NCBI GenBank assembly: GCA_020086605.1 | Contig: JACBWW010000016.1 | Location: forward strand, 16,715,512 to 16,779,511 | Direction of reading: 5' to 3' | DNA length: 64,000 nt | Source of the DNA: Lanius collurio | Lineage: Eukaryota; Chordata; Aves; Passeriformes; Laniidae | In this document: positions 12,242 to 35,069 of the stretch, piece after piece | Layout: the number at the start of each line of letters is the position of its first letter | Numbering within the stretch: the first letter of the stretch is position 1 | Notes under the pieces: model-generated | Databases searched by the model: none | Told to the model about the DNA's origin: nothing | The model's input: the letters and a program-made list of their open reading frames with translations, nothing else | Translations under genes and position numbers: made by a program

Positions 12242-15200
12242 TCATTCATCCCAGGGATTCTTGTCAGTGTCGATGGACATGCAGTTGTAGACGGCGTAGC
12301 GCAGCAGCTCCTCACAGACCTTGGCCCTGGCAGGGGGAACGCTGGGTCACAGCCATGATGGGCACAAGAAACTTCAGGCTTCCCTCCCCCACACCTGTCT
12401 GGACATTCCCCAGGGGAAGGCCTGGAGGGTCTTGATGGGAACCCCAATACCAGCCCCAGGGAGTGGGGAGCATCCCTATCTGCAGCTTGACTCACGAGGA
12501 ATAGTTGGGCAAGAAGAAGGTGCAGGAGCACGTGCAGGCCTGTGGCATCAGGTCAAACGCATCCAAGCTTGGGAAAAAGGAGAGTCAGACCTCAATACAG
12601 CACAGGGACCTCACATCATGTGGGGACCCCAGCATGACACAGGGACCCCAACACAGGCAGGATGGACTCACTTCGACCTTTCTGGGTAGACATTGATCTG
12701 AACTGGGAGGCGGCTCCGGCCAGTGACAAACTTGAGGAAGCGGCTGAGATCCTCTGAGGGGAAGGACAGAGCTCAGGTCTCAGGGACAGGACTATCGCAG
12801 TTGCTGCTGTTGCAGCACAATTTGCCTTGCAGAATCACCCCAGGAGCACGAGGCAAAGCTAAGGGATGCTCTCAGGATCCCAGGAAAGGCCAGGTGGGAT
12901 GACCCCAGCCAGTTTCCAGGGAAGCACCTGGTGAGCACCCCTGGGGCACAGGGCAGTGGGTACCCCCTGCTCTGGCCTGTCCTACTGCATGTGAAGAGCA
13001 GGGAAAGGCTTGGGGTCACTCACCGCTGGTGAAGTTCTTGAGTGCCTCCAAGAAGTACTGGACACGGGTATCATCGGAGGGGAAATCCTCAAACTTGACT
13101 GGGACAAAGAATGTGCAGTGGCTTAATTAGAAACTCCCAGCAAAGCAAAGGAAAGGAGGAGACCCTCTGCTCCTCGGTGAGCCCATGAGAGCCCCTGGCA
13201 CCTCTGAATGGGACCAGCACCCTGTGCCATGGTGGGTGGAGAAACCGAAGTCCTAGTTTGCAGAGTGGCCACTTGCCTCTGCCCATAGCAGCTAAGGATC
13301 AGACAGACCAGAGCAAGGATCAGTGGGGTTTGCTGCTAAACCTGAAGCATCCGTGGACCCTCTGTCTTATCCTCCCTCAGTCTCTCAGGCACCCCATGAC
13401 CACGATGCACGCGCAGGACAAGCATTATCAGGGGGATCCCTTGCCCTTGTGGAGGGCAGGGAGTCTGGGCTGGCCCTTGTGACTTACTGAACTTCTGCAG
13501 TTCAGCCACTGTGATCTCTGGGTCCCCGCAGATCCTCTTCTCCATCTGCTGCCAGGTGAGCAGGTCCAGCACAGGCTGGGGCACCACGTGGAGCAGCCCG
13601 GCCCGTATGGCTGCAATCTGTGGGGGGCACAGGACGGGCTCCATGTCACCACAGTGCGTCTCAGCCCTGGGCAGCCACCTAGGGCTCTGGGGACAGTGAC
13701 CACAGGATCCCAAAAGGGGTCCCCAGGACCCATGCCCATCCTGGACATGGCATGCACAAGGAATACCAAGCTGGAGCTGGGGGACACGTTTTGGCAACCA
13801 TGAATCCCACAGGTACCGGGATGGCTTGCCACAGCAGCAGGGTCCCCTTGCAGCCTGTCGGCCATGGGGGACAGTGTCACCTGCTCCTTGCTCTCCTCCA
13901 GCCGAGCCTTTTGCACCAGGCGGATGAACTCCTTGCGGTCCTCGTAGCGCACAGCGGTGTTGCTGCCATTGGGGATCAGCTCCACCACGCGCTGATCACT
14001 CAGCACTGTCGTGTAGGTCAGCTCTCTGCCAAACATGAACTCGAAGCCTTCCCTGTCTACCCTCTCCAGCACCTCCAGCAGCTTCACCTGCAACCCAAAT
14101 GAGCAATAGCAACCACAGTGGAGCCAGAGCAGCCATGAGAGATCACAGCATTGCCTTGCCAGCACCCAGCCCTGCTCACCAGCTCTGAGTCCACGGTGGC
14201 AAAGTCCTTGCTCCAGCTGACCTCCTCCCCTGCCAGCTGCTTCCACACCAGTGCTGGCAAAGACAGGATCTACCAAAGAGAATGGACACAAGCATTCTCC
14301 CTATGCCCCTCCTTCACTCATAGGCAGCCCCTCTGCCCAAGACAGGGCAGCCCTTGCCAAGCCCCCTCACTGGCCAGGGAGGCTCTGCTGTGCTCACCAG
14401 AAACTCCTTGCTCCTCAGGGCTGCTCCCATCAGTTGCCCAATCCACTCATACTTGGGGAAGTCCTTGCAGGAGGGGTTGGGAACATACATGTCCCTGGTG
14501 TCACTGCTGCTGTCAGCCTGTCGGACAGACACTTAGGACACACAGAGATTTCACAAGCCCAGCAGGGTCTCTCCTGCAGCTTTCCCCACCATCACCCCTC
14601 CACCTGCCTCTCCTGCCCTTTATACCCTTCCAGGAAATCTCCACCACCCAGGTACAAGCACAGCTTCCCCAGACAACAGCGCTGCAAACATTAAGATAGG
14701 CCTAACACCCCAGGCTCTGCTGACTGACTCCCCTGGCCTGGGCAGGCAGAGGGTGGGATGCCAAACCTGATTAGAGGTGCGCACAAAGAAGGGCAGGGGC
14801 ACTGGGACATCGCCCGAGCTGGGACACAGCTCCTCTGACACATCCGACAGGCTGTCCCGAAAGCCACCACCTGCAGGGGGGGCAGAGGCTGGTTAGGGCC
14901 TGACACACCAGGGCCAGAAACTGAGCCACAGGATCTGGCCAAGCTGCCCCCCTACCCTAGGGCAGCAGCAGTGTTGGTAGGGTAGGGGAGATATGGGGAC
15001 CACCTCATATGTGCAGAGCAGAGCTGCCTCTCCCAGAGCAGCTGGGACAGTGTGGGCACCCACTGAGCTGCACCCCAACATAGTAGACAGCAGGGGAGAG
15101 CTCTCACCATTGTCAATGATGCCCTCAGTGATGAAATCGCACTCCCACCACTGGCTGTAGGTCAGGGGCCACCTGTGAGGAAGCAACAGCCCCATGCACA

Positions 15201-34400: not shown

Positions 34401-35069
34401 GGCGTTCCCCAGCCCAAGGCAGGAGGGGCCGTGGGGCAGCCTCCCGAGCACGCATAGGGGTGAGCACCTCCGCGCTCCCGGGGACCCAGCGGGACACCGC
34501 GGCGGCCCCGTACCTGATGACGGGTTTGTAGTCCACCCCAAACAGCTGCTGCTGCCGCTGGATCCGCTCCGTGGACTCCACGGGCACCAGGCGGTCCCCG
34601 CCGTCGGCGTGCTTGCACACCAGCACCCACCCCTCCTCGAGATCGCAGCCGCTCCGGTACTCCTCCAGCTGCTCCTGTGGGGACAGCCGGCGGTCAGGCG
34701 GGGCCGGGCCGGGCCCTTCGCGGGCCGCCGCACCCGCGTTACCTTGCTGAGCTTGACCCAGAGCCCGGCGCCGTTGCAGTACTCCTCGCCGGTGGCGCGC
34801 AGGCAGCCGCCCTTCCGCACCTCGATCGTGGCCCGCGCCGCCCGCTTGCCGCCCCGCGCCGGCCCCGGGCTGTCCCACACGCTGAGCAGGCTGCGGGCGG
34901 CGGCGGCCGCGGCGGCCGCGGGGTCCTTGCAGATCTTGTACTGCACCTCCCGCGGCACGTAGCAGAGCGCGGCGGGCAGCGCCTGGGCGCGGCGGAAGCA
35001 CTCGCTGCACTGCAGCAGGAACCGCAGCCGGCCCAGCACCTGGTGCGGCGCCTCCCCGCCCGCTCTCAT
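25428..35069 (-). CDS. HECTD3: HECTD3, HECT-domain E3 ubiquitin ligase (HECTD3-B, conserved copy)
   Basis: E3 ubiquitin ligase with an N-terminal DOC/APC10 domain and a C-terminal HECT domain; the mammalian protein is cytoplasmic. It has 21 coding exons: 34743-35069, 34514-34674, 34047-34139, 33655-33790, 33099-33214, 32723-32836, 32278-32360, 31746-31911, 31200-31281, 30140-30322, 29563-29615, 29181-29245, 28643-28746, 28191-28310, 27766-27855, 27221-27427, 26702-26831, 26253-26327, 25976-26057, 25785-25856, 25428-25512. All splice sites are GT/AG, phases are continuous and the frame is open: 847 residues against 861 in human, the shortfall lying in exon 1. Catalytic Cys809 sits in [13 protein letters not shown] and matches human Cys823. 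The DOC domain spans about residues 205-383 and HECT about 498-843. The C-terminus [10 protein letters not shown] equals the human one. It keeps the ancestral position, head to head with UROD, 319 bp between start codons, so this is the positional ortholog. Confidence 0.96.
27208..27364 (-). repeat. Near-identical block shared with HECTD3-A (exon 16)
   Basis: Counterpart of 13868-14024, with two mismatches in 157 bp. It includes the [19 protein letters not shown] segment, where both copies differ from the human residues as I recall them, so the two copies are more like each other than either is like human in this patch. Confidence 0.8.

Follow-up and report, generated by a model that had tools for sequence, protein, structure and literature searches.

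The window analysed here, 64,000 nucleotides of contig JACBWW010000016.1 from Lanius collurio, holds two HECTD3 genes head-to-tail, and the question raised by this locus is what the second of them is and what it does. We refer to the left, fast-evolving paralogue as L (12242..20451, minus strand) and to the right gene, the counterpart of other vertebrates' HECTD3, as R (25428..35069, minus strand). We consider it likely that L is a second HECTD3 derived from an old tandem duplication and kept bird-wide, a working ligase with a partly different job; conversion with R has replaced its first exon and a portion of exon 16.

Both genes yield complete spliced models of 21 coding exons on the minus strand. 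L encodes 846 aa in exons 20451-20125, 20046-19886, 19349-19257, 18828-18693, 18317-18202, 17951-17838, 16758-16676, 16437-16272, 15935-15854, 15616-15434, 15342-15293, 15172-15108, 14870-14767, 14517-14398, 14269-14180, 14087-13881, 13617-13488, 13098-13024, 12753-12672, 12567-12496 and 12326-12242. R encodes 847 aa in exons 35069-34743, 34674-34514, 34139-34047, 33790-33655, 33214-33099, 32836-32723, 32360-32278, 31911-31746, 31281-31200, 30322-30140, 29615-29563, 29245-29181, 28746-28643, 28310-28191, 27855-27766, 27427-27221, 26831-26702, 26327-26253, 26057-25976, 25856-25785 and 25512-25428. In either copy, GT is found at 20/20 donors and AG at 20/20 acceptors and there is no internal stop; the donor of exon 3 in R and the acceptor of exon 2 in L were placed by hand, at sites matching the other copy. 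Exon lengths are equal with the exception of exon 11, which has 53 bp in R and 50 bp in L, a difference of one codon. Each protein carries a DOC/APC10 domain (PF03256) in its N-terminal half (27.3 bits in L and 52.8 bits in R, cut-off 21) and a C-terminal HECT domain (PF00632; 191.6 and 203.9 bits, respectively, cut-off 23.9). The cysteines that we take to be catalytic, an assignment that agrees with the alignment to human HECTD3, are present in both proteins (C809 in R and the cysteine within 'TCSC' in L). The models thus bear out the original prediction of two intact 21-exon genes of 846 and 847 codons, the left of which retains the HECT catalytic cysteine and all splice sites.

The DNA similarity between L and R is limited to the exons and the short intron 1; the other introns do not align. 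Since 846 codons nevertheless align in frame, chance resemblance is excluded, and two complete genes side by side confirm that the tandem duplication is real. A genome-wide search with the L protein gave 36 matches, 35 of them within L and R; the remaining one is a HECT match at 37% identity on a separate contig, and no further HECTD3 copy was found. Other land vertebrates seem to have one HECTD3 only.

Both genes lie between EIF2B3 on the left and UROD on the right, as had been proposed. The first coding exon of EIF2B3 is contained in an open frame at 11113..11700 (minus strand, ~11.5 kb), residues 62-110 of which match residues 1-49 of eIF2B gamma. On the right, the UROD exon stretch at 35970..38745 (plus strand) gave PF01208 in 4/4 peptides tried (36-38.7 kb); UROD exons run on the plus strand from 36.2 kb, with a start codon, placed by eye, near 35389. 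The interval between these two genes is presumably the HECTD3 neighbourhood in mammals as well. A CpG island at 34300..35499 (CpG o/e 0.65-1.10) covers R exon 1 and the UROD start and is likely a two-way promoter of R, whose ATG lies at 35069, and UROD. A second island, at 20000..20799 (CpG o/e 0.63-1.05 in 200-bp windows), covers L exon 1 and ~250-350 bp upstream. A scan for AATAAA/ATTAAA placed polyadenylation hexamers at 12188..12193 for L and at 25332..25337 for R (both minus strand), 48 and 90 nt past the respective stop codons. Two stretches are presumptive avian CR1 retrotransposon: an open frame at 9608-9934 (minus strand), near or in EIF2B3, whose translation resembles the 3' end of the CR1 ORF, and a short stretch at ~21640-21760 between L and R, whose sequence resembles a CR1 fragment. 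Further right, 40001-42300 (CpG o/e 0.66 over 40001-42000, open frames up to 301 aa) is perhaps the start of another gene; none of seven open frames tried at 40-61 kb had a Pfam match, and the one compared with PDB had no match there either.

How widely is L distributed? In a protein search with L, at least 65 rows among the best 120 of 224 matches ranked above the bird R cluster P0066; all were birds, and they included ostrich, rhea, tinamou, goose, galliforms and Neoaves. When a profile of 13 L proteins was used instead, all matches above P0066 among the best 120 of 265 were again from birds; within these 120, no non-bird protein ranked above bird R, and the top non-bird match was a lizard HECTD3. 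No crocodile or turtle L was present among the matches listed. L shares 94% identity with its orthologue from Myiozetetes and 81% with those of ostrich and rhea.

The same picture emerges from a tree of 42 rows, from which exon 1 and residues 656-702 were omitted; 14 of 56 rows had been removed beforehand as partial or doubtful models or in thinning of groups. The 25 L rows, including the window's own, form one clade (support 100/100, stem 0.48). The inner order of this clade is palaeognaths, Galloanserae, Neoaves, which is the expected order of birds, and the window's L groups with three songbirds (97/97). L lies inside the amniote group (branch 100/97, outgroup shark, in a tree of HECTD3-type rows only). 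It does not group with the R genes of its own lineage, and a tree that holds it with bird R is rejected (AU test, p 0.009). A duplication specific to this species was rejected on the presence of L from palaeognaths through Galloanserae to Neoaves. The favoured reading begins with an old tandem duplication that would have given rise to L and been followed by its retention in all three of these groups. L orthologues are already annotated in databases under automatic names: bird entries called 'E3 ubiquitin-protein ligase HECTD3-like' in NCBI and UniRef are L orthologues, and the L described here is one more member. These names mix L and R, however, as some L proteins are named plain HECTD3. Two further rows, P0001 (Mimus melanotis, 1138 aa) and P0070, look chimeric or mis-started and are perhaps annotation errors at the tandem pair.

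A recent duplication was likewise rejected. Outside the converted tracts dS is ~1, and introns other than the short first do not align; the identical exon 1 described below reflects conversion and not youth. The dS value and the lost intron similarity are compatible with a date before or after the split of birds and crocodiles. AU tests gave p 0.078 for L placed with bird R plus crocodile, 0.18 when turtle was added and 0.44 with all sauropsids, as against the value of 0.009 with bird R and 0.003 with crocodile alone. In the free tree, all 10 amniote R rows come together without L, though weakly supported (75/72). Simulation of a duplication on the bird stem under a simple model gave 40 sets in which that grouping costs at most 0.33 log units, compared with 7.7 for the real 21-row data. 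The tree tests favour a duplication before the bird-crocodile split and disfavour a later one, and single sites give thin and mixed support. Of six sites changed in archosaur R, three carry the older residue in L, none the archosaur residue and three another residue; at six sites changed in bird R, L has the bird R residue, the older state and another residue at two each. Fifteen more sites differ between bird R and crocodile and have an unclear older state; there, L matches bird R at six, crocodile at two and neither at seven, a class that, if anything, leans toward the later date. For crocodile, all these age tests draw on a single protein of 718 aa, and bird R rows are few in a database clustered at 90%, and the long, re-constrained stem of L could mislead every one of them. 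We put forward only tentatively the bolder version of our reading, in which L is very old, predates the bird-crocodile split and survives only in birds as a mosaic ligase, with exon 1 held R-identical by conversion and the DOC loop and catalytic C-lobe rebuilt for new substrates and ubiquitin handling.

L had been predicted to be fast-evolving, and a single species comparison (window to goose for L, window to duck for R) puts it at 11-33 times the rate of R, depending on the domain. The L distances are 0.447 (N part), 0.488 (DOC), 0.380 (middle), 0.194 (N-lobe) and 0.506 (C-lobe) changes/site; for R, the corresponding values are 0.040, 0.015, 0.023, 0.017 and 0.033. Domain limits here and below are our own choice, guided by the match to human HECTD3 and by general knowledge of HECT domains. 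Such speed would suit a redundant copy with relaxed constraint that is heading to pseudogene status and has been retained by chance, and so would the fact that, for several L proteins, the precomputed Pfam domains do not include DOC. Selection argues otherwise. Outside the tracts, the pairwise L-R dN/dS, for which the original prediction had named a value near 1 as damaging, is 0.26 (bootstrap 5-95% 0.21-0.32), and L is under purifying selection overall. By part, dN/dS is 0.28 (N part), 0.33 (DOC), 0.41 (middle), 0.15 (N-lobe) and 0.20 (C-lobe); these are NG86 values for the L-R pair and not branch values, and YN00 gave a dS of 2.4 on the whole. The highest dN/dS is found in exon 6, where L and R share 16 of 38 residues (42% identity over 38 codons), as the original prediction had stated; its value of 0.79 would fit a redundant copy, with a range (0.40-1.52) that includes 1. 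Low dN/dS in both HECT lobes and full-length proteins with the catalytic cysteine across palaeognaths, Galloanserae and Neoaves speak against redundancy.

The original prediction also placed the divergence of L in the substrate-binding part, and this holds only in part. Among the five parts, dN does peak in DOC (0.378), which also contains the exon with the highest dN/dS. When the L stem is scaled to the remainder of the HECTD3 tree, however, it is longest in the C-lobe (0.61), followed by DOC (0.28), middle (0.21), HECT N-lobe (0.20) and N part (0.15). In 40 bootstraps, the 5-95% ranges of C-lobe (0.35-0.95) and DOC (0.19-0.38) overlap slightly. Relative to usual constraint, the C-lobe is the most accelerated part of L, with DOC also much altered, and the view that divergence lies mainly in the substrate-binding part was rejected in that form. 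L (54 rows) and R (31 rows) are each fixed, at 90% or more, for a different residue at 32 sites: 10 in the C-lobe, eight in DOC, five each in the middle and N-lobe and four in the N part, while exon 1 has none. For these counts, L is represented by the window's own protein and by those of P0002-P0071 that have 780-880 residues; some are isoforms of one species. At 84 C-lobe sites conserved in R, L keeps the residue at 47, has newly fixed another at 10, is loose at one and lies between at 26. With 26 sites in this intermediate state, relaxed constraint may account for part of the change in the C-lobe, which is what redundancy would predict; the excess of newly fixed over loose sites is not. Taken together, we regard a redundant L as unlikely.

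The C-lobe could also have changed in another way, with L expressed as a catalytically altered regulator that shares the N-terminal part of R and competes with R or tunes it, without substrates of its own. Conversion that keeps exon 1 R-identical while the C-lobe is, in relative terms, the most accelerated part is what one would expect of such a protein. The active site is not. Exons 17-21 of L (12242..13617, minus strand) encode the last part of the N-lobe, followed by the HECT C-lobe and, in it, the catalytic cysteine, which is C in 50/54 L rows, the other four being gapped, and thus in all 50 readable rows; in R it is C in 29/31 rows (one gapped and one A). Its surroundings read L-P-x-S-S-T-C-S-S in R and M-P-x-A-S-T-C-S-C in most L, with a second cysteine two residues past the catalytic one in 46/50 readable L rows. 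With the catalytic cysteine retained and a C-lobe dN/dS of 0.20, we find the regulator improbable. In our preferred reading of L as a working ligase, its ubiquitin handling may have changed instead, the C-lobe having been re-tuned around a retained active site.

The core of DOC is encoded by exons 5-6 of L (17838..18317, minus strand), and a loop that reads S-D-G-S-Q in R, which we take to be a hallmark of DOC domains, has become mostly S-N-G-P-P in L proteins: D259 (30/31 R rows) is replaced by N in 39/54 L rows, and Q262 (27/31) by P in 38/54. The DOC part of the AlphaFold model of L orthologue P0002 superimposes on the HECTD3 DOC crystal structure (9r6v) with an rmsd of 1.4 Å and a TM score of 0.91, and the fold is predicted to be retained in L; the full-length P0002 model has low confidence (mean pLDDT 56). 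L may have taken on its partly different job by accepting other substrates through the altered loop.

Comparison with human HECTD3 (PDB 9r85, 9r8t and 9r94) places both genes in the same family. R is its counterpart, matching 9r85 over nearly the whole length with 1611 bits, which upholds the claim that the right copy is mammal-like. L scores 1164 bits and likewise has the domain order, DOC fold and catalytic cysteine of human HECTD3. It differs in being a paralogue seen in birds alone, its DOC loop altered and its C-lobe re-tuned; identity to the window's R is 53% for DOC and 64% across the final 147 residues. L would be a working HECT ubiquitin ligase on the HECTD3 plan, with an N-terminal scaffold, a substrate-binding DOC domain and a HECT domain with the catalytic cysteine. 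HERC2, CUL7 and CUL9 also match L in DOC sequence, and HERC2 and CUL7 in DOC fold; their architectures differ from the HECTD3 plan, which L has. Excerpts of Li et al. 2017 (PMC5489699) describe binding of CRAF and HSP90 by the DOC domain of human HECTD3 and link the mammalian protein to kinase quality control, and the openings of other abstracts link it to inflammation and immune signalling. We found no paper on a bird HECTD3 duplication among titles and abstract openings of the open full-text literature, and a term search of a 2010 survey of animal HECT genes (PMC2837046) returned neither Gallus nor chicken nor birds. A second, fast-changing copy throughout birds means that work on bird HECTD3 must distinguish two genes, and, as a natural experiment, can reveal where a HECT ligase tolerates change.

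Converted blocks between the copies had been predicted, and two exist. Tract 1 (L, 20115..20468; R, 34733..35086; both minus strand) is an exact run of 354 bp that comprises 17 bp ahead of the ATG, exon 1 itself and 10 bp of intron 1. Tract 2 (L, 13867..14023; R, 27207..27363; both minus strand) covers 157 bp in all, in exon 16 and 14 bp of intron, with three mismatches and a longest identical run of 92 bp. Fourfold sites differ between L and R at 0/67 positions in exon 1 and at 78/195 outside exons 1 and 16. That the two copies, or the identical first exon, arose by misassembly of this genome is highly improbable. The 354-bp identity would favour it, but most exons differ strongly, as do all introns except the short first; each copy has its own flanks on one contig; and L orthologues occur in many other bird records, with an R-like exon 1 there as well.

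In HECTD3 from non-birds, no part is less conserved than exon 1, with 47-67% identity to the window's R (at least 40 residues aligned; the crocodile row has too little exon 1 for scoring) versus 77-92% for the rest, and its identity over 354 bp between L and R is therefore attributed to gene conversion. Bird L exon 1 is a median 97% identical to the window's R (64% for the rest of L) and scores higher than the rest in 52/53 rows, the comparison being between cluster representatives of other species' L and the window's R. The sole exception, P0070 (27% like R in its exon 1 part), probably has a mis-modelled start. The four bird R rows besides the window's vary more: exon 1 is 99% identical to the window's R in duck, 81% in flycatcher, 21% over 42 residues in emu and 18% in kiwi. 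We take the low-scoring rows (flycatcher, emu and kiwi) as faulty gene starts, although they run against the pattern of an R-like exon 1 in birds. On these comparisons, conversion of L exon 1 with R appears to have been repeated or lasting in birds and is recent in the window's lineage.

The island over L exon 1 extends beyond the converted tract, and the DNA upstream of the tract no longer aligns closely with R. Excerpts of a zebra finch study (PMC12047795) report that recombination is enriched at CpG islands, that birds lack PRDM9 and that the mean non-crossover tract is 32 bp. Because 354 bp far exceeds this mean, tract 1 would need several events or another kind of repair. By analogy with zebra finch, we infer that exon 1 keeps being converted due to its location in a CpG island, where PRDM9-less birds tend to place recombination; this position could make it a repeated conversion target. 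In the L-R pair, conversion is cleanly concentrated on an exon within a CpG island, in a PRDM9-less lineage.

Some lineages depart from this pattern. L exon 1 is 83-91% identical to the window's R in five galliforms (P0053, P0063-P0065 and P0067) and two cuckoos (P0029 and P0052), and 89% in Malurus. Conversion seems to have weakened in galliforms, and cuckoo and galliform exon 1 alike have drifted from R, as though it had weakened or stopped there. Within the window, L and R share ~83% identity across exons 13 and 14, rising to ~90% over 106 bp within exon 14 (the exon lies at 28191-28310 in R and 14398-14517 in L), possibly an old, eroded conversion tract.
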